A program made the translations under genes and the position numbers. 35,000 nt of DNA from Bryobacterales bacterium (GTDB lineage: Bacteria; Acidobacteriota; Terriglobia; Bryobacterales; UBA6623): positions 1 to 35,000 of the forward strand of contig JAPOOG010000019.1 in assembly GCA_026713545.1 (NCBI GenBank), read 5' to 3'. Under the pieces are notes generated by a model. The model ran no database searches, was not told the origin of the DNA, and worked only from the letters and a program-made list of their open reading frames with translations. Below, piece after piece: positions 10,794 through 34,350 of this stretch. Position 1 is the stretch's first letter. Every line of letters starts with the position of its first letter.

Positions 10794-12344
10794 ATGAACA
10801 AACTGATCGGGCTCGCTCTGATGCTCCCGCTGGCGTGCGCTGCCGGCGGCCAGTCGTTGCCCTCGCAACCCCTTCCCGGACAGGCGCAACCACTTGCTGA
10901 CGGCAACGAAGCCGCCGCGTTGGAAGCGTTGCGGGCAGCGCCCGATCAAGTCGAGCCCTACATCCGTCTGGCTGCCGTCAATGACCGGCGAGGCAAGCTG
11001 CATATCTCTCGAAACTACCTGTTGCGGGCGATCGAGCTGGCGCCCGGGCACAGCGGCGTGCATCATCTGCTCAGCGTCAACTATGCGCGTATCGAAGACT
11101 GGGAAAAAGCGTTCGTTCATATGGAAACCGCGCTGAAGAACGAACCGCGCAATGCCGCGATGCGCTACAACGCAGGGAATCTGTTCCATAACACCGGCAA
11201 GTTCCCTGAAGCGTCCCGGCAATATCGGCTGGCGCACCTCCTCGACCCGGCCAACTTCCAGTACCACTATTCGCTGGCGCTGGCGAAGGAGTTGGCCGAC
11301 CAACGGGAAGAAGCGCTTTCCGAGTGGACCAAGGTCATCGAAGCCCATCCCGCCCAGGCCGGACCCTACTCCCGCCGCGCGACTCTGATGATGTCGCTCG
11401 GCCGCCAGGAAGAAGCCCATCGCGATGCGGCGAAAGCCATCTCCTTGGACCCGAAGTCGGCCGACGCCCACTACGTGCTGGGACGAATCCACGAGCAGGA
11501 TCGTGAACTGCCGCAGGCTCTGAAAGCTTACGCCCAGGTCGTTACCATCGATCCCGAGCACGTTCAGACCCGCTACCGCTTGAGCCTGGTCCACCGGCGC
11601 CTGGGTGATGCCGAAGAGGCCAGGAATCAAAGCAATATCTATCGGTCTCTCAAGGCAAGAAACGATGCGCTCGACACCATCGCCCGTGCGGCGAACTCGA
11701 TCGCAACCGGCAACTACCGCTTCGCCGAAACGCAACTGATAGAGGCTGTACGAATTGACCCGGAAAACGTCCAGGCTCTTTACCACCTCGGCATGGTTCA
11801 ACAGGAGCAGCACAAGTTCGCGGACGCGGTGACAACGTTCCGGACGGCTCTTTCACTCGATCCCGAGCTGGCCATGGCGCGCGCAACCCTCGGTCTGGCG
11901 CTGGCGGAACTGGGCCGCCGCGAGGAGGCTCGCCATGAGCTGGGAAAAGCTCTGGAGTCGGGCGGTGACAGCTACGAAGTGGCTCTCTTCGCCGGACGAG
12001 GGTTTCTCCGTCTCGAAGACTTCGCCCAGGCAGAAGCCGCTCTCGTGCGGGCGCTCGATCTGTGGCCTTCTCATCCCAGGGCGCTCGCCGGCGCGTTCGA
12101 GCTCTACGTCATGTGGGACAAAACGCAGCGGGCGCGGGCCTACGCGGACCTGGCCGCGGAGGCGAACCCCAACGATGGGAAGCTGCTCTTCCTGGTGGGC
12201 CTGTTCTGGGCGGGTGAAGGCGAGCTCGAACGGGCGCGCAGCCGACTGCAACGAGCAAGAACGGCCCTGCCCGGGGATAACGACATTTCTGATTTGCTGG
12301 CAAAGGTCGATGAGTTGATCGCTCGACAGGCTCGGGGCCGCTAG
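10794..12344 (+). CDS. Exported tetratricopeptide-repeat protein
   Basis: The 516-residue product has a short hydrophobic export signal (residues 1-20, KLIGLALMLPLACAAGG; the cysteine context is not a canonical lipobox). The rest is almost entirely 34-residue TPR units, for example APGHSGVHHLLSVNYARIED, YNAGNLFHNTGKFPEASRQY, YSRRATLMMSLGRQEEAHRD, ALYHLGMVQQEQHKFADAV and ARATLGLALAELGRREEARH, from about residue 35 to the end. TPR arrays are protein-interaction scaffolds; the partner is unknown, but the propeller genes immediately upstream suggest an exported complex. Its TAG stop (12342-12344) lies inside the CTAG that begins the inverted-repeat element at 12341, so the element abuts the reading frame without truncating it visibly. 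Confidence 0.85.
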   Translation: MNKLIGLALMLPLACAAGGQSLPSQPLPGQAQPLADGNEAAALEALRAAPDQVEPYIRLAAVNDRRGKLHISRNYLLRAIELAPGHSGVHHLLSVNYARIEDWEKAFVHMETALKNEPRNAAMRYNAGNLFHNTGKFPEASRQYRLAHLLDPANFQYHYSLALAKELADQREEALSEWTKVIEAHPAQAGPYSRRATLMMSLGRQEEAHRDAAKAISLDPKSADAHYVLGRIHEQDRELPQALKAYAQVVTIDPEHVQTRYRLSLVHRRLGDAEEARNQSNIYRSLKARNDALDTIARAANSIATGNYRFAETQLIEAVRIDPENVQALYHLGMVQQEQHKFADAVTTFRTALSLDPELAMARATLGLALAELGRREEARHELGKALESGGDSYEVALFAGRGFLRLEDFAQAEAALVRALDLWPSHPRALAGAFELYVMWDKTQRARAYADLAAEANPNDGKLLFLVGLFWAGEGELERARSRLQRARTALPGDNDISDLLAKVDELIARQARGR

Positions 12345-12524
12345 CCTGCATTTCTCACCACGAGGTGAGGTGAAGGCCGTGAGAGGGCCGTCAGGACGAG
12401 GCGCGAGCCGCTTGGCGCGCACAGGTGTACTTGAAAGTACATCGAGCACGGCAAGCAAGCGCAACGAAGTCATGGCGGTCTTATCGCGTGCTTCGGCCGT
12501 CATGTGGTGAGAAATGCAGGCTAG
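12341..12524. repeat. Family-1 inverted-repeat element, copy A (complete, 184 bp)
   Basis: The element is bounded by a perfect 21-bp inverted repeat: 12341-12361 and 12504-12524, outer end CTAG followed by CCTGCATTTCTCACCAC. Inside are two more hairpins, about 12395-12412 (GCGCGAGCC-GCTT-GGCGCGC) and about 12425-12440 (TGTACTT/AAGTACA). No protein is encoded. It fills the gap between the TPR gene and oppB, and its first CTAG supplies the TPR stop codon. The size and structure resemble a MITE or REP/REPIN-type element; CTAG at both ends could be a 4-bp target-site duplication. Confidence 0.85.
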
Positions 12525-14498: not shown

Positions 14499-14779
14499 AC
14501 CTGTATTTCTCACCACGTGGCGAGGCGAAGTACATGAGAGGGCCGTCAGGACGAGGCGCGCGCCGCTTGCCGCGCGCAGGCGTATGCGGCCATACCGCCT
14601 CCTTCACCCCTCGGTTCACGAAACACGAATCACGGCCATTACGGTTCGCCGGCCGTCAGACATTTCTTTCTGGAGCGAACCAGGCCCCGCCAATGGTTTT
14701 CACGAATCACGAGACACGAAACACGAATCACGGCCTTGTTATCGTATGCCGAGGCTGTCAGGTGGTGAGAAACGCAGGT
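14499..14779. repeat. Family-1 inverted-repeat element, copy B (about 281 bp, with heptamer insert)
   Basis: The ends are ACCTGTATTTCTCACCAC (14499-14516) and the inverse of ACCTGCGTTTCTCACCAC (14762-14779), two mismatches in 18. The left ~65 bp matches the same module in copies A, C, D and F, including the GCGCGCGCC-GCTT hairpin. The middle differs: it carries a roughly 70-bp module with CGTCAGACATTTCTTTCTGG, shared with 34352-34421 and 34617-34687, and two heptamer arrays. It fills the oppC to hydrolase gap. No target-site duplication is visible here. Confidence 0.8.
14701..14733. repeat. Heptamer array inside copy B
   Basis: Four units with a 7-base period, CACGAAT, CACGAGA, CACGAAA and CACGAAT, then CACGG. 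A shorter array of the same kind (CACGAAA, CACGAAT, CACGG) lies at 14617-14635. No coding function. Confidence 0.8.
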
Positions 14780-16785: not shown

Positions 16786-18183
16786 ATGAACCACACTGCC
16801 AAAATGGCCGACTATCTTTCACAACTGACCCGCGATCAGTTGCCGCATGATGTCGCCAACACGATCAAGCATTGTCTGCTGGATGCGCTGGGCGTCATTC
16901 TCGGGGGCGCGGCCTACCTCCGGGAAAACGACGACTTGCTCTTTGCGGACTACGTCCGGAGACTCGGCGACCGCGAGGAATCCACCGTTCTGGGATTCGG
17001 CTTGAAGTCCTCGTCTCGTTCGGCGGCCTTCGCGAACGGATCGCTGGCCGAAGTTCTCGACCAGTCCGACTGCATGTACGCCACCGCCAAGACGCACCCC
17101 GGCTCCAGCATCGTGCCGGGCGCCGTGTCGTTCGCCGAAGCGCAGGGATCAAGCGGCAGAGACCTGCTGACGGCGATCGCCGTGGGCTACGAAGCGACCG
17201 GACGGGCGGGGATGGCCGTGCAGCCCACGCATTGGCACATGGGTTTTCAAGCTACGGGAACGGTGAACACGATCGGCGTCGCCGCCGCCGTGGGGCATCT
17301 GTTGGGATTCGGCAACGACAAGATGGCGAACGCCCTGGGCATCGCCGGCCATATTCTGCCGATCTCGAACGGCGACGGCATCTTCAAGGGCTATACCGTG
17401 AAGCCGGTCCATGGCGGGCAGTCGGCAATGAGCGGCATCCAGGCGGCGCTGATGGCTGATTTGGGCATGACCGCCGGACCTCTTGAAGGCGAGCCGCCGC
17501 GGCATCACGCGTTCATTCGGATCACGAGCTTCGAGCCGAACCCCGAAGCCTTGACGGACGGATTGGGGGAAACCTGGTACGCCCGGGACATGGCTTTCAA
17601 ACCCTATCCGACCGGCCTGCTGGACCAGGGCCCCGCCGAAGTGGCCATCAATCTGGCCACTCGGCATGACATCAGAGCCGAAGACGTCGAGGACGTGCTT
17701 GTCTCCACCTACTCGAACGCCGTCAAGTTCACCGGCGGGCACTACACGGATGTCAACAGCACGATCTACGATTGCCAGCTTTCACTTCCCTACTCCGTCG
17801 CCGCCGGCATTCTCGATCGGCAACTGACCTGGGAGCAGTACTCGGCCAGGCGCCTGCGGGACCCCGCCTTGCACGACTTGGTCTCCCGCGTGAAGGTCGT
17901 CGCGGGAGAAGGCATGGACAAGAACTATCCGCGCGACTGGCCGGTCGAGGTGGAAATCCGACTGCGGTCCGGCAAGACCGTCAAGCGCCGCATCGAAAAG
18001 GCATGGGGGTCACCGGCGCGGCCGATGACCCAAGCGGAACTCGTGACGAAGTTCGAGCAACTCGCCGGCCGCCTCGTCGATGGCGGCAAGGTCCGCGAGG
18101 CCGCACAAAGGCTTCTCGCGATCGAGCAGCAGCGGCATTGCGCCGAGGTATTGGCCCTGCTCGATTGCGAAAGCCCGTATTAG
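16786..18183 (+). CDS. MmgE/PrpD-family protein
   Basis: 465 residues, the usual length for the family, which includes 2-methylcitrate dehydratase, cis-aconitate decarboxylase and iminodisuccinate epimerase. Characteristic segments are visible: HCLLDALGVILGGA near residue 28, FANGSLAEVLDQSD, KTHPGSSIVPGAVSFAEAQG, GYEATGRAGMAVQPTHWHMG, QATGTVNTIGVAAAVGHLLG, FKGYTVKPVHGGQSAMSGI and FKPYPTGLLDQGPAEVA. It should be cytoplasmic. AGGAG at about 16771 precedes the ATG. It follows the S15-like hydrolase by 37 bases and is the last gene of the block before the accessory island. The family catalyses dehydration or epimerisation of small carboxylic acids; which reaction occurs here is not determinable from sequence. 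Confidence 0.88.
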   Translation: MNHTAKMADYLSQLTRDQLPHDVANTIKHCLLDALGVILGGAAYLRENDDLLFADYVRRLGDREESTVLGFGLKSSSRSAAFANGSLAEVLDQSDCMYATAKTHPGSSIVPGAVSFAEAQGSSGRDLLTAIAVGYEATGRAGMAVQPTHWHMGFQATGTVNTIGVAAAVGHLLGFGNDKMANALGIAGHILPISNGDGIFKGYTVKPVHGGQSAMSGIQAALMADLGMTAGPLEGEPPRHHAFIRITSFEPNPEALTDGLGETWYARDMAFKPYPTGLLDQGPAEVAINLATRHDIRAEDVEDVLVSTYSNAVKFTGGHYTDVNSTIYDCQLSLPYSVAAGILDRQLTWEQYSARRLRDPALHDLVSRVKVVAGEGMDKNYPRDWPVEVEIRLRSGKTVKRRIEKAWGSPARPMTQAELVTKFEQLAGRLVDGGKVREAAQRLLAIEQQRHCAEVLALLDCESPY

Positions 18184-18288
18184 ATGTGAACTTTCAACAG
18201 GTTGTCGTCTCGGCCTTGACCGAGGAAACTGAGGGAAGTTCTCTATTTAACTTGACAAGCCGCTCACCGGCTTGCGGCCGATGCCTCT

Positions 18289-18534
18289 TTAGACGATGAA
18301 CCCCACGATGAGCAACACTACCCCGACAGCGAAGGCAGCGAAATTAACTTTAGCCAACCAATCGGGCACCGCAGCGGCTTCTTCAGGAGTCAAGTCATAG
18401 AATTCGCCGGTATAGTCGGACCGCCTTTTCGCTTCTTCGACTGCGTAGTTGTGCATGACTCCCCATGACCAGAACCCGACCACACCAGCACATATCGCGC
18501 TGATCAACCAAAACCCTCCCTGGTCCCACAACAA
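18289..18534 (-). CDS. Small two-helix membrane protein, hypothetical
   Basis: At least 81 residues with two hydrophobic segments (about FWLISAICAGVVGFWSWGVM and FAAFAVGVVLLIVGFIV) joined by a charged loop (YAVEEAKRRSDYTGEFYDLTPEEAAAV). The TTG at 18534 is a weak start. The same frame stays open upstream with a further hydrophobic stretch (WLGPVINVIAVFLLW) but no ATG, so the N-terminus is uncertain and the protein may be longer or truncated. No family recognised. It lies at the left border of the accessory island, opposite to its neighbours. Confidence 0.45.
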   Translation of the reverse strand: MLWDQGGFWLISAICAGVVGFWSWGVMHNYAVEEAKRRSDYTGEFYDLTPEEAAAVPDWLAKVNFAAFAVGVVLLIVGFIV

Positions 18535-18824
18535 GAAGACGGCAATAACATTGATTACTGGACCTAACCACCCATTCAGGTGTACCTCTGAAACCTTGCT
18601 CCCGCTCCCAGCGTATCACTGCCAAGTCTGCGGTATTCTGAACCTGCAAGCATCAGTCGGTGATACCCGTATGCCGGGCTGCCTGCGGTATACGACAGTC
18701 GAACGACGCAGGCCTCGCGTAGCTCCCGTGAGTCGCGCTGAAGAGTCGGGTCCCCGCCTTGTTTCACCGACATGGTGCTTACAAACAGCCCGTCACCCGG
18801 ACCTGCCGATACGAGGAGCGGATC

Positions 18825-19070
18825 ATGAAAAGAGCAGTCATGGGCGCCGTTGCGTCCATCCTAGCGTTAGCAGTTTCGTTCGCCGAGAACCAGCGCCGTG
18901 AACTCCTCGAACTCATAGGGGAGGTCGGTTCGGTCGAGATATCAGGCCAGGCAGGGACAGGAACGCAGACCGGAGTGCTCGTTCTCGGACTGAGAGCAAA
19001 CCCGACCGGGCCGTTTACGACGCTCTTCCCGATGATTCCGTTGACTGGTTATCTGGACGACATCGAATAA
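18825..19070 (+). CDS. Small secreted protein, hypothetical
   Basis: 81 residues from ATG 18825, preceded by GAGGAG at good spacing. The first ~22 residues (KRAVMGAVASILALAVSFA) look like a signal peptide. The mature part contains ELIGEVGSVEISGQAGTGTQ and a hydrophobic segment (VLVLGLRANPTGPFTTLFPM). No family recognised. It is isolated in the island's left part, with decayed sequence on its right. Confidence 0.45.
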   Translation: MKRAVMGAVASILALAVSFAENQRRELLELIGEVGSVEISGQAGTGTQTGVLVLGLRANPTGPFTTLFPMIPLTGYLDDIE

Positions 19071-19781
19071 GAAGCAGATTACTCTTCGCATCGGAGGCGG
19101 GCGACGGTATGGCGGGAGAGGCTCGTTGTGCGGGCGACCTCCAGAACCGCGCGTTTCTCGGCGACCCGCGCTGTGGAAGCTTGCATGGCTTTCTTGCGGG
19201 CTTGGTAGCGGCCGATGATTTCACTAGGGAGGCCCGCGGGCATTCCGATCATGTCCCGATCGAAAGAAGATGCGGGGCTTTGTGATAAGGGGCGCAGCGC
19301 CCCCTATTGGGCATCAGCGTGGAGGATGGCGCCGGTGCGGCTGGAGAGGCCGGTGGCATACGTGAGGCCGCGGTCTGGGAAGCCGTGGCTGACGCCTTGA
19401 GCTAGGAAAAAGCGATGGCGGTAGAATCAAGAGATAGTCGTGTGACACCGCCGACGAGTACCTCAATGATCACAATACAATCCCTGTGGCAACACGCCTG
19501 TCGTATGGTAGTTCCGACCACGACATTACAAATAATGGGCTGCCTGGGTTGACCGCGAAGGGATACGCCCTGTCGCCGGAATAACGGACAAATCCACCTC
19601 ACCTGGAGGCAGTGAGGAGAATACAGGATCGGCAGCGATATTCAGAACTGATTTTGACTAGGTGCTTACGATATTCAGCGACTGCCCCGCAGTTGGTTCG
19701 ATTTGGGTTCCCGTCCAGGACCGGACGATTGACCTGGACGAAGCGAAGGCTCTTTGTACCTAACGCAACAGCACGCTCTGA
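19071..19781. other. Decayed stretch without an intact gene
   Basis: No complete gene is supported. On the minus strand about 19240-19077 reads as a helix-turn-helix-like tail (PSEIIGRYQARKKAMQ, then SLSRHTVARLR and a stop), possibly the end of a lost regulator or recombinase. GGGGCG-CAG-CGCCCC at 19289-19303 is a perfect hairpin without a T-run. The rest shows only short frames in all directions. Confidence 0.35.
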
Positions 19782-20102
19782 GCACTCGGATTCCTCATGA
19801 GGCAGGGGACAATGCGGGCGAATCCGTCATTCTCTCAGGCCGAGTTGGCCACATTGCCAGTTCTGGACTTCAAGACGACAAGCCCCACCATCCTCGCGGA
19901 AGCTTACGAGCAAACTAGGTACATTCCAGTCAAACCGTGGAAGAATGCGGCCGACGAAGACATGCGGGAGCGCCTCGACCGAGCCGCCGCTCATTCATCG
20001 GGGATTGCTCTTGAGACGATCAGGGACTTAAGAGTGCAGATCAGCACGGGACCGAGCCTTACCAATGAGCTCGCTGCCGAGAAAGGCAGAGGGGCCAGGT
20101 AA
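19782..20102 (+). pseudogene. C-terminal remnant resembling an N6-adenine DNA methyltransferase
   Basis: The frame is open from 19782, just after a TGA, to 20102 and reads ALGFLMRQGTMRANPSFS, then ELATLPVLDFKTTSP, YEQTRYIPVKPWKNA and EDMRERLDRAAAHSSGI. The order RANPSFS, then LPVxDF, then a helix ending with a DRAA-like motif resembles the tail of Eco57I/N12-class N6-adenine methyltransferases, where a target-recognition domain ends before a short helical C-terminus. The catalytic NPPY region is absent from the window. If correct, it is what is left of a modification gene that once preceded the nuclease operon. It could instead be a short gene starting at ATG 19797 or 19812. Confidence 0.4.
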
Positions 20103-20147
20103 AATTAGCGTGAGTGTTGCAGCTTCGGACAAAGCGTCGGGTCGGGT

Positions 20148-21299
20148 ATGGGAAAAACGATGACGCTCAAGTTCATCCATACATCGGACTGGCAGATCGG
20201 GAAGGTCTTCCGCTTTGTCGATAATGCGACGATGGGGCTTCTCCAGGAGGCCCGCCTCCGTGCCATAACGCGGCTGGGAGAGCTTGCGGAAGCGCATGGG
20301 GCTACCCACATCCTCGTAGCGGGCGATGTCTACCACATGGAGGCGCTGTCGACCCGCTCGCTTAACCAGCCATTGGAACGGATGCGAGGATTCCCAGGCA
20401 CACAGTGGCATCTGTTACCAGGCAATCATGATCCGCATCGCCCCAACGGTCTCTGGGATCAGCTTCTCCGCAAAGGACTCCCCAACAACGTACGAGTACA
20501 TATCACGCCGGAGCCGGTGATGCTTCAGGACGAGGCTGCCGTCCTCTTGCCGGCACCCCTGTTTCATCGTCGAACGCTCGCAGATCTCACGGCATATATG
20601 GACGACGTGAACTTGCCCGAAAGTCTCATTCGCGTCGGGCTAGCTCACGGCAGCGTTAAGGGATTCGGTTCCGACGGCAAGGACGTTCCAAATTACATCA
20701 CCCCAGACCGGCCAACTCGCGCCCACCTCACTTATCTAGCGTTGGGCGACTGGCATGGCCAGAAGCAGATCAACGATCGGTGCTGGTATAGCGGTACACC
20801 TGAAATCGACGCTTTTGATGTGATCGACGGTGGTCAGGCGTTACTTGTAGACATCGAGGGGCCGCATGCGGTCCCTACCGTGAAACCCATCGCGACGGGA
20901 TATTACAGGTGGATAACGCTGTTAGAGCAGGTTAATAGCCGAGCGGACATCGACTACCTTGCCGAGAAGCTGCGGGATATCGCTGACGAACTGGATCGGG
21001 TGCTTATCCATCTGTCGGTGGAAGGTGCGCTGTCGTTGGAGAACCGGCAATATTTCGAGGAACAAATTGTAGACGGCGTATCGGCCGCGTTTTGTTTTAT
21101 GCGCGTCGATGATCGCCGCCTGTTCCCACAGCCCACAGCCGAAGATCTGGATCGAATCGACCGGGGAGGTTTCGTGCGCACGGCCGCCGATGAGTTGAAG
21201 CGACTCGCCGAAGAAAGCGAAAGTGATGGCGGTATCGCCGCCGCAGCGCTGCAACGTCTTTATATTGAGCATAGAAAACTGCAGGCAGAGCAGCGATGA
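20148..21299 (+). CDS. SbcD/Mre11-like metallophosphoesterase (DNA repair exonuclease family)
   Basis: 383 residues with the calcineurin-like phosphoesterase motifs in order: Asp14 in TSDWQIGK, Asp60 in AGDVYH, GNHDPH at 92-97, His167 in GLAHGS and GDWHGQ at 200-205. Motif I is D-W-Q rather than the D-x-H of SbcD and Mre11, and the last motif is G-D-W-H, both seen in a divergent SbcD-like subgroup. ATG 20160 is an alternative start four codons in. The C-terminal ~130 residues would be the capping and ATPase-contact region. The stop overlaps the next start (ATGA, 21296-21299), so translation is coupled to the SbcC-like ATPase, the expected partner. It probably acts as a DNA nuclease gated by that ATPase. 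A role in defence rather than housekeeping repair is inferred from the neighbouring OLD-family gene. Confidence 0.85.
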   Translation: MGKTMTLKFIHTSDWQIGKVFRFVDNATMGLLQEARLRAITRLGELAEAHGATHILVAGDVYHMEALSTRSLNQPLERMRGFPGTQWHLLPGNHDPHRPNGLWDQLLRKGLPNNVRVHITPEPVMLQDEAAVLLPAPLFHRRTLADLTAYMDDVNLPESLIRVGLAHGSVKGFGSDGKDVPNYITPDRPTRAHLTYLALGDWHGQKQINDRCWYSGTPEIDAFDVIDGGQALLVDIEGPHAVPTVKPIATGYYRWITLLEQVNSRADIDYLAEKLRDIADELDRVLIHLSVEGALSLENRQYFEEQIVDGVSAAFCFMRVDDRRLFPQPTAEDLDRIDRGGFVRTAADELKRLAEESESDGGIAAAALQRLYIEHRKLQAEQR

Positions 21300-24007
21300 A
21301 ACTCCGATCGCTCGCCGTCAACCAGTTCAAGAAATTTACGACCCCGATACGCCTCGAAGGTATTGAGCATGGCCTCAACGTCGTGGTCGGTCCCAACGAG
21401 ATGGGCAAATCGACTTTGCTCGACGCCCTTCGCGCAGTCCTCTTCGAGAAATACAGCTCTAAGGCCCAGCCCATCATGGCACTGCAGAACGACCGGAACC
21501 AGGCCGCGCCGGTGGTCCAACTGGCTTTTGAGCTTGATGACGGCCTCTACCGAATCACGAAGCGCTTCATCAAAAAACCGTATGCCCGACTGTCATGTCC
21601 GGACGGACGCAGTTTGGAAGGCGATGCCGCCGAAGATACCCTCCGCGATTTGCTCGTCTTCGACGAGCCCGGGAAGACCGGAGCGAAGCCGGAAACGCTT
21701 GGAATGTGGAATGTCCTCTGGGTACAGCAGGGGCAATCATTTACTGCGCTTGCTCTACCTGAGAGAGCGCGCTCGAGCCTTCACAGTGCTCTTGAAGCGG
21801 AAGTCGGCACCGTACTGGGAGGTCGTCGGGGGCGCGCACTGCCGCAGGCCATCGAGAAACAGCTCAGCGAGTTTATCACCGGCAACACCAACCGGCCGCG
21901 GGGTGCGTACAAAGAGCTGATGGAGAGTGTTCAGAGAGTGCGCGACGAACTTGATTGCTTACGCACCCGCCGTAAAGACCTGACACAGACATTGAACGAT
22001 CTTGAAGAAGTTCAGGAGACCCTGGAGCGCCTCACAACTGGCGACCGTGATAAGGCGGACGAGAAGGAGCTTGCTGAGGCGAGGCAACGGTATAGCTATC
22101 TTGCCGAACTGGAAGCCCGCATAGAGGCTGCGTCAACTGAACTGAAACTCCGGAAACGAACAGTCGAGCAGGCCGAGCAGGCGGCAGTCGCCCGCAAGCA
22201 ATTGAAGGCAAACATCAAAACCGAAGAAGCTGCCCTCGAAGAGGCCGGAAAGCGGCTGGATGGAATACGTCAGGAGGAAAAGGAGGAGCGATCCAGGGTC
22301 GATGCATTGCGTGCCGATGTGCGCCAGTCGGAAGCGACCGTCACTCAGGTTGACGAAACGGTGTCCCGTTATCGCCGCGTGCTCGGCACTGTAGAGCATC
22401 AGGCCCGACACCGTGATCTTGAGAGGCGGTTCGAAAAGGCCCAGGCTGCCGAAAAACGCCAACGCAAGGCCCAACAGGCTGCCGCCACCATACTGGTTAC
22501 AGATAAAGCCATCCAGAAAATACTAGAAGCCGCGCAAAGACTGGAGACCGTTCAAAGTCGCCTCAATGCGGCAGCAACGCTCGTAACTTTCGACATGACC
22601 GCGGACGGCTTGTCCGGCATCAAAGTTGATAGGGAGCCACTCACCGCCGATCGATCGTCCGTTCAGGCTGTCGAGCCTGTCACCATTACCATTCCGGATC
22701 GTGGCCGGATCACGGTCGAGCCGGCCATTAAGGATCGCGATAAGCTGCTTCTTCAGCAACGCGATGCCAAGACGGCACTTAAGGAAGTGCTGGAGGGCGC
22801 TGGTGCCAAATACGTGGCCGATGCTGAAGATCAATATGCCAAGCGTCAGAAGCTGTTGGGTGACGCGAACCTTGCCCGTCAGGAGGCCGAGTTGTACGCT
22901 CCCGCAACGAACGACTACGAAGCCGGGGCGCAGGCACTCTCCGACTACATCGGAGGTCTAAGGCAGGTTCTGAAGCGCGAGATTAACGAATTGGATTTGC
23001 AGGATCTGCCGGCGCGTCAAGAGGCCGAAACGGCATTGCAAAAAGCCCAAAATCATGCGGATGAGACCCGAAGTGCGCTGGCTGCTGCGCGTGCTTCCTT
23101 GAGCGGGCCGGAGAATCTCTTAGGAGCGCTCCAAACAGAAATCGGTACGCTTCAGGGCCGGCACGACGAAAGCAAGGAGCGGCTCGAAAAGCTTCAGGCC
23201 GAGGTTGCTCAGGCGGAAAAAGACCGTTCTGACAGTGAGCTTCAGTCCGCCATCGAAGCGGCACGTGCAGCCTTGTCAGAACAGAAAACTGCTATTGCAG
23301 GTCTTGAGGCGCAGCGCACTGATGAGACCCTGCCACAATTGAAGGCACGTATCGGCCGCCTCGAAAGGGCTCTTGAGGACAGACGTGAGAAACGCGCAAA
23401 TCTGAAGGAAAGAATGGCCGGTCTCAAATCACGCATCGAGGCCGCTGAAGGTGCCGGACTCGACGAAGCCATCGCACAAAAGGCCCGTGACCTTGAACTC
23501 ATGGAAGAAGAAAAGCGCCGGCAGGGCCGTGAAGTCCAGGTCCTGAGTCTCCTGCTATCGACTTTGCGCGGGGCAGAGCAAGAAGCCAAGGAACAGTATT
23601 TGTCGCCCGCGCTGAGCCGTGTTCGGCCGTATCTTCAACTTCTGTTTCCCGGTGCTGACATCCAACTTGATGAGAACCTTCAGATTACCGGCATGGTGAG
23701 AGAAGCAGGTTATGAGGAAGCCTTCAATCGCCTTAGCATGGGCACCCAGGAACAGATTGCCGTCCTCGTTCGTCTTGCGTTCGCGGAGATGCTGGTCGAA
23801 CAGGGCCACCCTGCGACCGTCGTTCTTGATGATGCCCTTGTGTTTTCGGACGACCGGCGGATGGGACGCATATTCGACATCCTCAACATGGCGTCCCGAA
23901 ACGTCCAAGTGATTGTCTTTACCTGCCGGGAGCAACTCTTCGAGGGTCTCGGCGGTCGGCAGTTGTCGCTTGAGCCAGAATGCAGCGAAGAGCTTGCCTC
24001 GGCGTAG
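21296..24007 (+). CDS. SbcC/Rad50-like SMC-type ATPase lacking a zinc hook
   Basis: 903 residues, head-coil-tip-coil-head. The N-terminal head starts FKKFTTPIRLEGIEHGLNVV and has Walker A GPNEMGKST (32-40). The C-terminal head has a degenerate ABC signature RLSMGTQEQIAVLVRLAFA (812-830), Walker B VVLDDALVFSDD (842-853) and FTCRE (875-879) at the switch position. Long charged coiled coils cover about 205-420 and 560-765. Where Rad50 and SbcC carry a CxxC zinc hook, this protein has a short beta-like segment, about 428-478 (SGIKVDREPL, VEPVTITIPDRGRITVEP). No CxxC occurs anywhere in it. It should pair with the phosphoesterase encoded by the overlapping upstream gene to process DNA ends. The OLD-family gene follows 15 bases later. 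Confidence 0.88.
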   Translation: MKLRSLAVNQFKKFTTPIRLEGIEHGLNVVVGPNEMGKSTLLDALRAVLFEKYSSKAQPIMALQNDRNQAAPVVQLAFELDDGLYRITKRFIKKPYARLSCPDGRSLEGDAAEDTLRDLLVFDEPGKTGAKPETLGMWNVLWVQQGQSFTALALPERARSSLHSALEAEVGTVLGGRRGRALPQAIEKQLSEFITGNTNRPRGAYKELMESVQRVRDELDCLRTRRKDLTQTLNDLEEVQETLERLTTGDRDKADEKELAEARQRYSYLAELEARIEAASTELKLRKRTVEQAEQAAVARKQLKANIKTEEAALEEAGKRLDGIRQEEKEERSRVDALRADVRQSEATVTQVDETVSRYRRVLGTVEHQARHRDLERRFEKAQAAEKRQRKAQQAAATILVTDKAIQKILEAAQRLETVQSRLNAAATLVTFDMTADGLSGIKVDREPLTADRSSVQAVEPVTITIPDRGRITVEPAIKDRDKLLLQQRDAKTALKEVLEGAGAKYVADAEDQYAKRQKLLGDANLARQEAELYAPATNDYEAGAQALSDYIGGLRQVLKREINELDLQDLPARQEAETALQKAQNHADETRSALAAARASLSGPENLLGALQTEIGTLQGRHDESKERLEKLQAEVAQAEKDRSDSELQSAIEAARAALSEQKTAIAGLEAQRTDETLPQLKARIGRLERALEDRREKRANLKERMAGLKSRIEAAEGAGLDEAIAQKARDLELMEEEKRRQGREVQVLSLLLSTLRGAEQEAKEQYLSPALSRVRPYLQLLFPGADIQLDENLQITGMVREAGYEEAFNRLSMGTQEQIAVLVRLAFAEMLVEQGHPATVVLDDALVFSDDRRMGRIFDILNMASRNVQVIVFTCREQLFEGLGGRQLSLEPECSEELASA

Positions 24008-24022
24008 GTTCGGGACGAGGAA

Positions 24023-25966
24023 ATGAGAATTGAATCTGTCCACATAGAAAACTTTCGCTCATTTGAAGATGCGATCGTTCCCTTCAACAATTACGCCTGT
24101 CTTGTCGGTCCGAACGGCGCCGGAAAGTCGACGGTCCTAACGGCCTTGAACGTCTTCTTCCGCGAATCTGAAAATCTGCCGACCGACCTCAGCCAACTGG
24201 AACAAGAAGATTTTCACTGCAAGAACACTGAGGCTCCGATCCGGATCACGGTAACTTTTTGCAACCTGAGCAAAGAAGCCCAGGACGATTTTTCCGATTA
24301 CGTTCGGCAGGGACGGCTGGTCGTTTCGGCCGTTGCCACCTTCGATGAGGCAAGCGGTAAGGCGCAGGTCAAACAATACGGGCAGCGCTTGGGCATGACG
24401 GCGCTGAGGCCGTTCTTCGAGGCGCTGGACGGGGGCAAAAAGGTTGGCGAACTGAAGGTAATCTATAACGATCTCCGCGGAACATACCCGGACTTGCTGG
24501 CGCCGGGTACCAAAGACGCCATGGTGACGGCCCTGCGTAATTTCGAGGCCGCTCTACCGGATGAATGCGAACTTATCCCCAGCGAGGATCAGTTTTACGG
24601 CTTCTCCAGAGGGAAGAACCGTCTCGAAAAGCACGTGCAGTGGGTTTATGTCCCGGCCGTCAAGGACGCGACTTCCGAACAAGTGGAGGCCCGAAACTCG
24701 GCTCTCGGAAAACTGCTTGCTCGCACTGTTCGTTCACAGACAAATTTCGACGAGACAATCAAGATGCTGCGCACGCAGATGCAACAGCAATATCAAGAAC
24801 TTCTCGACGGCAACCAAAGCGTTCTTGATGATATTTCGTCGGCGCTCCAGTTGCGCATCGCCGAGTGGGCACACCCTGATGCGCGCTTGCGCCTTCAATG
24901 GAAACAAGATCCTGAGAAATCGGTGCGTGTCGAAGAGCCTTGGGCCCACATTCTTGCCGGCGAAGGCGAATTCGAGGGCGAGCTTGCTCGTTTCGGTCAT
25001 GGGCTTCAGCGCTCATATCTGCTGGCACTGCTGCAGGAACTCGCTGGGGCCGATGATGCCGCTGGGCCCATGCTCATTCTCGCCTGCGAGGAGCCGGAAC
25101 TCTATCAGCATCCGCCACAGGCCCGTCACCTAGCTGCAGTCCTCAACACTCTCAGCCGAGGCAATGCGCAGGTCATTGTCTCGACTCATGATCCGCTTTT
25201 CGTCTCTGGCCAAGGATTCGAAGATGTTCGCATGATCCGCAAGGATCCCGGACAACGACATTCTGCGGTTTCCCATCTGTCATTCAATGAAATCGCGCAG
25301 GCTGTTGGGGCGGCCACGGGCGCACAGCCGGCAAAGCCAGAGGGAATGCTTGCGAAGATCCATCAAGCTTTGCAACCTTCTCTCAACGAAATGTTCTTTA
25401 CTCGTAGGCTTGTACTTGTCGAAGGGTTAGAGGATGTTGCCTATCTCTGGTCTTTTATGCATCTCCTCGATAAAGAAGATGAGTTCCGACATTTGGGCGG
25501 GCACATCGTAGCCGCAAACGGTAAAAGCGAGCTGCTTCAGCCACTTGTTATCGCAAGGCATATGAGAATCCCGACATATGTCATTTTCGATGCTGATGCA
25601 GACAAACAAGACAAGAACGGCAGCCGGGCCAAGCATGAAAAGGACAACAGCGCACTATTAGCACTCCTTGGCAAGGCGGGTGACGACCCCTTGCCGGCAG
25701 CGACATACTCGGGCCGCGGTTTCACGATGTGGCATTCCGACATTGGCGCGATCGTCGAAGCCGATATCGGAAAGCATGAGTGGGCGGAATACCGCGCAGA
25801 GGCCGACAAGCGTTACGGTCATGCTGGTGGGCTGCGCAAGAATTCACTGCACATCGGCGCTAGCCTAGCCTTCGCTTGGGAAGACGGAAAACGTCCGGCC
25901 AGTCTCGCACAGGTTTGTGCCGCCATTCTGGATACGGAAAACTACGTGTCAGAGTCGAAGGGGTAG
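24023..25966 (+). CDS. OLD-family ATP-dependent nuclease (ABC ATPase plus TOPRIM)
   Basis: 647 residues. The N-terminal ABC ATPase begins IESVHIENFRSFEDAIVPF and has Walker A GPNGAGKST (29-37), an insert of ~260 residues, the signature-like FGHGLQRSYLLALL (324-337), Walker B LILACEEPELYQHP (351-364) and the H-loop IVSTHDPLF (385-393). The C-terminal TOPRIM domain has Glu467 (LVLVEGLEDVAYL), ANGKSE (498-503) and IFDADAD with Asp523 and Asp525, so the metal-binding acidic residues are present. This is the domain order of OLD nucleases and Gabija GajA. No UvrD-like helicase (the GajB partner) or reverse transcriptase lies next to it; its operon partners are the SbcD- and SbcC-like genes. An integrase remnant in the opposite direction begins at the base after its stop. 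Confidence 0.88.
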   Translation: MRIESVHIENFRSFEDAIVPFNNYACLVGPNGAGKSTVLTALNVFFRESENLPTDLSQLEQEDFHCKNTEAPIRITVTFCNLSKEAQDDFSDYVRQGRLVVSAVATFDEASGKAQVKQYGQRLGMTALRPFFEALDGGKKVGELKVIYNDLRGTYPDLLAPGTKDAMVTALRNFEAALPDECELIPSEDQFYGFSRGKNRLEKHVQWVYVPAVKDATSEQVEARNSALGKLLARTVRSQTNFDETIKMLRTQMQQQYQELLDGNQSVLDDISSALQLRIAEWAHPDARLRLQWKQDPEKSVRVEEPWAHILAGEGEFEGELARFGHGLQRSYLLALLQELAGADDAAGPMLILACEEPELYQHPPQARHLAAVLNTLSRGNAQVIVSTHDPLFVSGQGFEDVRMIRKDPGQRHSAVSHLSFNEIAQAVGAATGAQPAKPEGMLAKIHQALQPSLNEMFFTRRLVLVEGLEDVAYLWSFMHLLDKEDEFRHLGGHIVAANGKSELLQPLVIARHMRIPTYVIFDADADKQDKNGSRAKHEKDNSALLALLGKAGDDPLPAATYSGRGFTMWHSDIGAIVEADIGKHEWAEYRAEADKRYGHAGGLRKNSLHIGASLAFAWEDGKRPASLAQVCAAILDTENYVSESKG

Positions 25967-26140
25967 CGGCCCAGACTTGCAACATGGGTTGCCGTTCTGG
26001 CAGGAACGCCGTCCGGTTGTAGGCCAGTCCGTTAGGATCCCGCACCGCTTGGGCCAACTTATGCTGGATGAAGTTGGGAGGAAGCCCAGCACTTCATCCA
26101 GAATGGTTCGTGCCATTGCTCCAAAGCCATACATCGTCAA
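25967..26140 (-). pseudogene. P4-type tyrosine integrase, C-terminal remnant
   Basis: On the minus strand, about 26134-26070 reads MYGFGAMARTILDEVLGF. After a frameshift near 26070, another frame continues NFIQHKLAQAVRDPNG and LAYNRTAFLPERQPMLQVW. This matches the C-terminal part of P4-type phage integrases, in which HGFRAMART precedes a motif ending NRTAHLPERRKMMQ. The usual His and catalytic Arg of HGFR are Tyr and Gly here, so the protein is dead in addition to being frameshifted. The match breaks off right at the end of the OLD-family gene. It is a remnant of the mobile element that probably delivered the neighbouring operon. Confidence 0.65.
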
Positions 26141-26976
26141 CCGATCCTGGCAGCGTCCTTGTAGTAGCTCAGGAACGCCTTGCTACCGATCGCTTCGATG
26201 TGATTGTGACCCGCAAGGACAAATGGATCGTGAGTCGGCTCCGCCGCGCCGCCGGATACGGCCCGCCATCGGCACCTCGCGAGTTCGTCAACGGAGAGAG
26301 CATGCTGGAAAAAGCTCGCTAACCTGCGTCCCGCACTATTGCTCCACTATGCAAGGAGGCGGAATCGGTCCGATGAAAGACGATGCCTGAAACTCCTCTT
26401 TGTTGACAGTGATTTTTGGGGTGCTTCTTTGTGGGCGAGTCAGCCGGAGAACTTGCTCCCTCCGATCCCTCCTGTGGGACTATCTCGCCTTTGGGGTTCA
26501 TCACCGATGCTAAACGTCGCTCTTCTCCCACTCTTGCTCGATCGCTCGCAACAGATCTTCTCCAACGATCCGCCAGTCGGATCAGAGGCCACGTTCATCG
26601 GCAACATCCGTTGTTGAGCTAGTGTTGAACTCTTCAAAAAGGCCACAGAGATCTATCGTCCTGCCGGCCCCTGAAGCCCAAGAGGGTCTAGCGCAGAGGA
26701 AGTCTGAGTTCATACGCCGTCAGTACATAGCAAGTCATCTCTTCGGTTCGCAAGCAGCCCTGCAATCGCGCAGACGTGGTTAGTAAAGCCGAACCCTTCA
26801 CTCAGACCGCAATACGCAGGGCACAAGCCGCGATGGCTGCCACTGCTACAATTGGCACCGGCCACACGCCAGTCTCAAGGCCTAAGCGCCCATCGGCCGA
26901 ACCGGCCTGACCGGCGACGACCCGTTGAGATTCCTCGGCCAGAGGCTTCGCGAACTCGCTCGTTGAGACAGCAAGC
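26141..26976. other. Decayed stretch between the nuclease operon and oppD
   Basis: No intact gene is supported. A short plus-strand frame ending at 26322 (LATDRFDVIVTRKDKWIVSRLRR region) has no recognised family. At the right end, 26840-26888 (read on the minus strand) shares about 85% identity over 39 bases with 28200-28240. No tRNA or clear attachment-site repeat was seen, although an integrase remnant lies at the left end. Confidence 0.4.
26840..26888 (-). repeat. Family-3 repeat, copy 1 (left of oppD)
   Basis: On the minus strand this contains CCTTGAGACTGGCGTG, GGCCGGTGCC and TTGTAGCAGT in that order. The same order occurs on the plus strand at about 28190-28240 with 6 differences over the best 39 bases. 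The two copies therefore lie in opposite orientation on either side of oppD. In one frame both would read LETGV-P-PIVAV, so they may also be relics of a shared coding segment. Confidence 0.45.
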
Positions 26977-27969
26977 ATGACGGTGATCCTGGAAGTCAAA
27001 GACGTCGTGACCCGCTTCCGGATGTCGGAGAAGACGGTCCATGCGGTCAACGGAGTCTCGTTCAACCTCGACGAACGAGAGATCCTGTGCGTCGTCGGCG
27101 AAAGTGGCTGCGGCAAGAGCGTCACCATGCTGTCGTTGTTGCGTCTGATCCCGGAGCCTCCCGGTGACATCGTCCGCGGCGAAGCGAATTTCCTGGGGCG
27201 GAATCTGTTCGAGCTGACGGCGGCGGAACTGCGCGAAGTCCGCGGCGCCCAGATCGGCATCGTCTTCCAGGATCCGATGACGTCTCTCAATCCGGTGCTC
27301 CCGATAGGCCGTCAGATCGCGGAAGTGCTGGTCGAACACCTGGGCTTGTCGCGCAGCCAGGTCAGAAGTCGAACCATCGAGTTGCTGGAACGGGTAGGCA
27401 TCCCGCATGCGGAATCCCGTATCGACAACTACCCTCACCAGTTCTCCGGCGGCATGCGCCAGAGGGTCATGATCGCGATGGCCCTGGCCTGCAATCCGAA
27501 GATCCTGATCGCCGATGAGCCCACCACCGCTCTGGATGTCACGATCCAGGCGCAGATCGTCGATCTGGTCAAACGGTTGCGCCGGGATCTCGGCATGGCC
27601 GTGATCTGGATCACGCACGACCTCGCGCTAGTGGCGAGCCTGGCCGAACGGGTGGTGGTGATGTACGCCGGCTTCATCGTCGAGCAGGCGCCCGTCAAGG
27701 AACTCTTCAACAATCCCAGGCACCCGTACACGATCGGCCTGATGCAATCCGTACCGGGCATGGACGATGCCACCGGGCAGCCCCTGGCCAGCATCGCCGG
27801 CGCTCCACCCGACATGCTGCGGGCTCCCCGGGGCTGCCCGTTCGCCCCGCGCTGTTCGTACGTCATGGACCGCTGCCGGGAGGAAAACCCCGAGCTGCTC
27901 CCGGTCGCTCGAGATCACGTCGCTGCTTGCTGGTGGGATGTGGAGGAAGAACGCCCCCGTAATGGCTAG
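26977..27969 (+). CDS. OppD/DppD-type ABC transporter ATPase
   Basis: 330 residues. Walker A is GESGCGKSV (41-49), with the Q-loop in GIVFQDPMTSLNPVLP, signature FSGGMRQRVMIAMAL, Walker B ILIADEPTTALD and the H-loop in WITHDLALV. The C-terminal oligopeptide-transporter extension follows, with the conserved cysteine cluster GCPFAPRCSYVMDRC and a final ACWW. In OppD/DppD proteins this cluster binds an iron-sulphur centre. The protein powers import through the OppB and OppC permeases. Its TAG stop (27967-27969) is formed by the terminal CTAG of the repeat element that follows, and the last codons before it (RNG) differ from typical tails, so the natural C-terminus may have been altered slightly. 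Confidence 0.9.
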   Translation: MTVILEVKDVVTRFRMSEKTVHAVNGVSFNLDEREILCVVGESGCGKSVTMLSLLRLIPEPPGDIVRGEANFLGRNLFELTAAELREVRGAQIGIVFQDPMTSLNPVLPIGRQIAEVLVEHLGLSRSQVRSRTIELLERVGIPHAESRIDNYPHQFSGGMRQRVMIAMALACNPKILIADEPTTALDVTIQAQIVDLVKRLRRDLGMAVIWITHDLALVASLAERVVVMYAGFIVEQAPVKELFNNPRHPYTIGLMQSVPGMDDATGQPLASIAGAPPDMLRAPRGCPFAPRCSYVMDRCREENPELLPVARDHVAACWWDVEEERPRNG

Positions 27970-28149
27970 CCTGCATTTCTCGCCACGTGGCGAGGCGAAG
28001 TGCGTGAGAGGGCCGTCAGGACGAGGCGCGCGCCGCTTGGCGCGCGCAGGTGTACTTGAAAGTACATCGAGCACGGCAAGCAAGCGCAACGAAGTCATGG
28101 CGGTCGTATCGTGTGCTTCGATCGTCAGGTGGTGAGAAATACAGGCTGA
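27966..28149. repeat. Family-1 inverted-repeat element, copy C
   Basis: The left end is CTAG plus CCTGCATTTCTCGCCAC (27966-27986). The right end is the inverse of CCTGTATTTCTCACCAC (about 28129-28145) followed by CTGA. The interior is very close to copy A, with the perfect hairpin GCGCGCGCC-GCTT-GGCGCGCGC (about 28026-28047) and TGTACTT/AAGTACA. It sits in the oppD-oppF gap and its CTAG forms the oppD stop codon. The right outer tetramer is not CTAG, unlike copy A. Confidence 0.8.
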
Positions 28150-30726: not shown

Positions 30727-30749
30727 GAAACTCCCTCCGTGCTTGTCCC

Positions 30750-30967
30750 CTAACCTGCCTATCTCACCACGCGGCGAGGTGAAGTGCGTGAGAGAGCCGT
30801 CAGGGCGAGGCGCGAACCGCTTGGCGCGCGCAACAGGGCCTTTAAAGGTTTTTCGCGAATCACGAGACACGGCCCTTACGTTTTTCACTAAAAGCTAACA
30901 ACTATCAACTAATAACTAACCACTTTTCGCGTGCTTCGGCCGTCAGGTAGTGAGATAGGCAAGCTAG
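30750..30967. repeat. Family-1 inverted-repeat element, copy D (218 bp)
   Basis: The left end is CTAACCTGCCTATCTCACCAC (shown in two parts: CTAA, then CCTGCCTATCTCACCAC) at 30750-30770. The right end is the inverse of CTAGCTTGCCTATCTCAC and continues to 30967. Both arms carry GCCTATCTC where other copies have GCATTTCTC, so the arms changed together. The interior has the shared left module, a heptamer pair at 30854-30872 and a different heptamer array at 30895-30922. The right CTAG (30964-30967) supplies the stop of the minus-strand oppA gene. Confidence 0.8.
30895..30922. repeat. Second-type heptamer array
   Basis: Four perfect 7-base-phase units, CTAACAA, CTATCAA, CTAATAA and CTAACCA. It is AT-rich and unlike the CACNNNN arrays elsewhere, but has the same period, and lies inside copy D. 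Confidence 0.75.
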
Positions 30968-34089: not shown

Positions 34090-34209
34090 GCGTAGCCCTG
34101 TCAGCGCGATTGTACCTGCCATGCTTGTCGGAGCACAATGACTCCAGGGCATCGAACAGGCCCGATAACCCCCAGGCATGTACGCAACCAACAACTTCAG
34201 CGACGACCG

Positions 34210-34350
34210 CTAGCCTGTATTTCTCACCACGTGGCGAGGCGAAGTGCGTGAGAGGGCCGTCAGGACGAGGCGCGAGCCGCTTGGCGCGCGCAGGTGTAGT
34301 GGCTATATCGCCTCTTTCACCCCTCGGTTCACGAGACACGAGACACGGCT
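34210..34350. repeat. Family-1 left end and module (copy F)
   Basis: CTAG plus CCTGTATTTCTCACCAC at 34210-34230, then the conserved ~65-bp left module with GCGCGAGCC-GCTT-GGCGCGCGC. It runs into heptamers (CACGAGA, CACGAGA, CACGG at 34330-34348). The right arm was not found before the window ends. It is upstream of the dehydrogenase gene, so it may lie in that gene's control region. Confidence 0.7.

Follow-up and report, generated by a model that had tools for sequence, protein, structure and literature searches.

Sequence comparison indicates that the conserved unit of a three-gene operon found in the 35,000-nucleotide stretch analyzed here (the window) is its first two genes and not the three together. 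These two genes encode a metallophosphoesterase (MPE), here called D, and a Rad50/SMC-like ATPase, here called C; the third encodes an OLD-family nuclease. Every part comes from a known superfamily, and what appears to be new is a mobile, hookless DxQ/GDxH pair with exchangeable nuclease partners. The pair is mobile and accessory in character, as is evident from its patchy spread, an empty site and the occurrence of distant relatives on plasmids. Our preferred reading, put forward tentatively, is that D-C is an Mre11-Rad50-like complex that serves as a mobile, exchangeable, end-directed module of defense islands, with a partner slot that has been filled independently.

The three-gene unit, its proteins and its island

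D and C overlap by the sequence ATGA, and OLD begins after a gap of 15 bases on the same strand (Table 1), so the genes form an operon, as had been stated in a first-pass annotation of this DNA. An alternative start for D is possible at 20160-20163. A promoter and terminator scan gave nothing beyond shuffled sequence.

Table 1. Features of the window and genes found behind D-C
Feature	Position or loci	Strand	Description
D	20148..21299	+	Mre11/SbcD-like metallophosphoesterase, 383 aa
C	21296..24007	+	Rad50/SMC-like coiled-coil ABC ATPase, 903 aa, without zinc hook
OLD	24023..25966	+	OLD-family ABC ATPase-TOPRIM nuclease, 647 aa
Accessory island	18182..26816		About 8.6 kb; from empty site in sister species and GC profile
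Upstream ORF	19797..20102	+	101 aa, just before D, without detectable relative
Downstream ORF	26068..26322	+	Short; possible YgjP-like metallopeptidase remnant (weak)
Genus repeat	12336-12524, 14499-14584, 27966-28147, 30735-30871, 34207-34298		80-190 bases, dispersed between genes
Partner: OLD	window, L029, L036, L052, L054; L034, L048, L051	same as D-C	Close or distant OLD
Partner: PDC-S06	L030, L032, L037, L042, L050; L040, L049, L060	same as D-C	AAA_13 protein
Partner: full Gabija	L033	same as D-C	
Partner: SIR2-HerA	L021, L061, L092	same as D-C	
Partner: AddAB-like genes	L053	same as D-C	
Convergent neighbor	L022, L045	convergent	OLD (L022), SIR2-HerA (L045)
No nuclease partner	L031, L039, L044, L047		

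D matched the Pfam Metallophos family (E 1.7e-7), and its predicted structure resembled the Mre11/SbcD fold (Foldseek E about 1e-15), in keeping with its earlier label as SbcD/Mre11-like. Against the NCBIfam sbcd model, D reached an E value of 2.9e-9 and 37 bits, far under the cut-off of 77.65 bits. Alignment to E. coli SbcD revealed altered metal ligands, DxQ (D14-Q16) and GDxH (D201-H203). The histidine of the first motif (DxH) was replaced by Gln in every D-family protein aligned, and the first histidine of GHxH was replaced by Asp in all close D proteins and in nearly all family members, with the remaining phosphoesterase residues invariant among close D proteins. Because of these ligands and the sbcd score, D is classed as Mre11-like and not as SbcD. 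With both histidines replaced, D is possibly not a nuclease of the Mre11 type; its metal site looks remodelled yet conserved, whether active or not. No model for D was found in PADLOC-DB 2.0.0 (2023).

C matched SMC_N (E 3.2e-13) and Rad50 models (about 1e-16), and it carries Asp at the position of the catalytic Glu of many ABC ATPases (LDDAL). It contains four Cys and zero CxxC motifs, and CxxC was absent from all 12 C proteins inspected (the window and 11 relatives), which bears out the description of C as hookless. The structure model of C had a low pTM (0.33), and local features alone were taken from it; at the apex of the coiled coil, a small beta-rich domain was predicted at about residues 428-474, with helices on either side.

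The OLD protein matched Pfam AAA_15 (1.2e-40) and OLD-like_TOPRIM (1.1e-10), and its Walker A, Walker B, and TOPRIM VEG and DxD motifs are intact; the previous identification as an OLD-family ATPase-TOPRIM protein thus stands. Its best PDB match was 6p74, the Class 1 (stand-alone) OLD of T. scotoductus. The PARIS AriA model aligned to the ATPase part (1.7e-44), the Old model scored best in PADLOC, and a separate AriB gene was absent at the window locus. Beside the OLD gene, the ORF list held neither a UvrD-like GajB ORF nor an ORF of reverse transcriptase size, as had been noted before; there was also no Rfam match, and retron_eff_Eco8 scored far under its cut-off. The window locus accordingly fits neither Gabija nor an Eco8-like type I-B retron. 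Relatives of this OLD (46-56% identity) with intact motifs were found outside D-C operons (L070 to L074). In L070 (8930-12571), an RmuC-family gene lies within 10 bases after the OLD relative.

Identity between the window and the sister species G001 (L088) is about 95% through position 18181 and resumes at that level from 26817. The island is missing from the syntenic site, where its place is taken by about 1.47 kb of repeats together with an incomplete copy of oppD. The GC content of the island is 55-58%, versus 60-63% in the surrounding DNA. The empty site confirms that the operon lies in an accessory island, as had been claimed. The gene remnants that had been read as flanking it were not confirmed: the supposed decayed methyltransferase tail (the upstream ORF) had zero matches in Pfam, NCBIfam, PADLOC or plasmids, and the supposed decayed integrase (the downstream ORF) gave only a weak YgjP-like match (Pfam E 0.0028, under cut-off). 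The genus repeat dispersed through the window also occupies the empty site of G001. That genome carries a distant D-C pair elsewhere (L023, G001:C179), 41% (D) and 29% (C) identical to that of the window and with no nuclease partner.

Spread of the pair and exchange of its partners

A genome-contig scan with C recovered 24 further loci, each with D directly before C, overlapping or abutting, and with identities to the window of 64-79% (D) and 57-75% (C). These loci are mostly alphaproteobacterial, with some others and several metagenome bins. D was present in 12 of 399 genomes of the host's class and in 3 of 396 genomes of the phylum, which is not the even spread of a general repair locus. A canonical SbcCD repair locus was rejected on spread, ligands and model cut-offs. 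The host is without canonical SbcD, and SbcD scored over the cut-off in only 3 of 21 relatives; because most relatives likewise lack it, D-C is not an obvious SbcD replacement.

More distant D relatives were found on 112 plasmids, most of which come from rhizobia and sphingomonads; 65 of the 112 are predicted to be conjugative. The remote D-C pairs that sphingomonads and rhizobia carry on plasmids are mostly without a nuclease partner. D had no match in phage records, C had none in viral contigs, and D had one match of 39% identity (L089) and two weak ones in viral contigs. It is highly unlikely that D-C is a module for the maintenance or repair of mobile elements (end repair, plasmid competition) that lies near defense genes through shared mobile elements. 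The plasmid copies, some of them near replication, partition or toxin-antitoxin genes, and a relaxase gene upstream in L052 are consistent with such a role, but the neighbors of the close family are far more often defense genes than plasmid functions.

The gene behind D-C was surveyed in the 27 loci with a readable downstream side, the window included. A defense or DNA-end gene follows on the same strand in 21 loci and convergently in 2 (binomial p 7e-5), and 4 loci have none. Same-strand spacing between D-C and its partner is 15 to 122 bases in most loci. Four partner types are known or candidate defense genes according to PADLOC, applied to one or two representatives of each type with the rest assigned by BLAST or annotation: Old, PDC-S06 (4.8e-169), GajA with GajB (2.6e-288 and 6.6e-237) and SIR2 with HerA (1.8e-111 and 1.3e-227). 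In L030, L038 and L048, D is immediately preceded by Type III restriction-modification genes, the L038 pair being assigned by similarity and position. Thus, the surroundings of D-C elsewhere are strongly defense-like.

Partners are exchanged even between close pairs: D proteins up to 96% identical are followed by OLD in L054 and by SIR2-HerA in L021. Mapped on a tree built from D and C, partner type shows 16 changes, compared with a mean of 16.9 after shuffling (68 of 200 shuffles were as low or lower). The lack of partner signal on this tree is attributed to frequent swapping of partners; it also fits mere co-location in islands.

The order D-C-OLD recurs in L029, L036 (Hoeflea poritis), L052 and L054, with gaps of 15-24 bases, the window included; this recurrence and the conservation of D and C speak against a chance arrangement. 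Joint occurrence of the three genes elsewhere, named beforehand as a check, holds for these four loci; OLD as a fixed third component was not borne out. In the class sample, a close D and a window-type OLD are adjacent in 2 of the 4 genomes with a close D, the window genome excluded, and their co-occurrence is above expectation (Fisher p 0.003, on small numbers). The OLDs of the window, L029, L036 and L052 form one clade in which all are linked to D-C. Separate joinings of OLD to MPE-SMC genes were seen in L054, in L022, in L034/L048/L051 and in two plasmid cases, Roseibium L079 and Paracoccus L080. The OLDs of these two plasmids are 84.6% identical, whereas the neighboring MPE and SMC proteins are no more than about 25-30% alike and their genes come in opposite order. 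OLD has, on the sequences compared, joined MPE-SMC pairs several times independently.

These observations bear on two other accounts of the operon. According to one, the three genes are an obligate trio in which D-C is the sensor and OLD an effector kept inactive until foreign DNA is found, a Lamassu-like logic. The short D-C-OLD gaps, the D-C-linked OLD clade and a weak resemblance of C to LmuB-type ATPases agree with this account, but the stand-alone OLD relatives with intact motifs and the exchange of partners behind nearly identical D proteins make it clearly improbable. A fixed three-gene system as a general rule was rejected, since partners are exchanged and OLD relatives stand alone. 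According to the other account, which is the strongest rival of the preferred reading, D-C is a defense pair complete by itself, and its neighbors are separate systems that share the island and sometimes the transcript. Gabija and SIR2-HerA function without D-C. That fact, the absence of partner signal on the D-C tree, the four loci without a nuclease partner and the stand-alone OLD relatives all argue for an autonomous pair; the same-strand spacing in most loci is tighter than loose clustering suggests, and near-identical OLDs have become associated anew with unrelated MPE-SMC pairs. We consider the autonomous pair somewhat unlikely.

Known systems and a possible mode of action

The first-pass annotation could name no described defense system made up of exactly an MPE, a Rad50-like ATPase and OLD; PADLOC-DB 2.0.0 (2023) contains none, and no description of the D-C pair was found in open-licence papers. 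The closest parallel is partial in each case. Like SbcCD and Mre11-Rad50, the pair combines a metallophosphoesterase and a coiled-coil ABC ATPase in one operon, with D folding as Mre11/SbcD and C having Rad50-like heads; unlike SbcCD, it has DxQ/GDxH in place of DxH/GHxH and no zinc-hook CxxC, and pairs of this type are patchy, mobile and located beside defense genes. Lamassu (LmuA-LmuB-LmuC) likewise places a Rad50/SMC-like ATPase beside variable effectors, with a conserved sensor and an exchangeable effector, and C matched the PADLOC LmuB model weakly (E 2.9e-14; the alignment starts at residue 368 and takes in coiled coil). However, the window has an MPE in the place of LmuC, no LmuA-type gene and a longer ATPase, and the partners of D-C are separate known systems. 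Identity with Lamassu was rejected, as neither LmuA nor LmuC is present at the window locus.

Class 1 OLD proteins (P2 Old and T. scotoductus OLD) share the key ABC ATPase and TOPRIM motifs with the window OLD, whose close relatives also stand alone, but the OLD gene of the window shares its operon with an MPE-SMC pair. Gabija (GajA-GajB) has an OLD-type nuclease, and a full Gabija lies behind D-C in L033, whereas no GajB/UvrD gene is found within the window. Nuclease-protease add-on pairs (PMC12799240) are similar in being gene pairs attached repeatedly to unrelated immune systems; they consist of other enzymes, and cooperation of D-C with its partners is only putative.

Several precedents suggest how D-C and OLD might work. 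Mre11-Rad50 cleaves DNA ends that are free, closed into hairpins or blocked by protein, and phage N15 has to protect its own ends against this complex (PMC12624138). P2 Old and TsOLD are 5'-3' exonucleases (PMC10568477), and DNA ends unoccupied by RecBCD are the target of Gabija and, on genetic evidence, of OLD (PMC12407980). By analogy with Mre11-Rad50, OLD and Gabija/RecBCD, D-C may open or mark incoming DNA ends that OLD then attacks.

In the preferred reading of D-C as an end-directed module, C would be a dimer of ABC heads borne on a hookless coiled coil and would recognize incoming DNA, in an ATP-dependent manner, by its ends, by hairpins or by protein-blocked ends. D would clip or process those ends via its remodelled metal site. 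The third slot would be taken by independently acquired nucleases or toxins, and the Class-1-like OLD of the window would attack ends exposed by D-C or DNA unoccupied by the host end-processing machinery. Such a scheme presumes binding of D to C, end recognition, nuclease activity and cooperation with OLD, and it would presumably protect against phage or plasmid DNA.

It is rather doubtful that D-C acts more broadly, as a general DNA-end adapter that hands or exposes invader ends to OLD, Gabija, PDC-S06 and SIR2-HerA. If it did, the presence of D-C would give known systems a trigger or alter the one they have. Lamassu has been described as Rad50-like and as triggered by hairpin DNA (PMC10586767). 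The position of D-C beside OLD and Gabija would tie this line to that of nucleases responding to unoccupied ends, and it makes it possible to ask directly if immune nucleases rely on an end sensor of the repair type. The pair looks like a plug-in defense part that has so far been absent from catalogues (PADLOC-DB 2.0.0), and a DxQ...GDxH metallophosphoesterase with a hookless Rad50-like ATPase could serve as a marker for defense islands that current models miss.

Further gene arrangements

Other arrangements were seen around D-C and related pairs. PDC-S06, which has weak PrrC matches and a possible RNase end domain, lies directly behind D-C in eight loci (for example, L030 8742-11477 and L040 11826-14144). 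In L053 (1981-11957), D-C is followed on the same strand by AddB-like and AddA-like helicase-nuclease genes. The Roseibium plasmid locus L079 (2866-12343) contains an unrelated MPE and a 1160-aa SMC-like protein, OLD, and a 772-aa protein without assigned function, and is possibly a further variant. A distant MPE-SMC pair in L058 (1847-7392) is followed directly by a GmrSD-type restriction enzyme. Large DUF3320/DUF4011 helicase-nuclease genes adjoin D on the same strand on rhizobial plasmids (L068 2017-9128) and on the opposite strand in L034 (774-7825).
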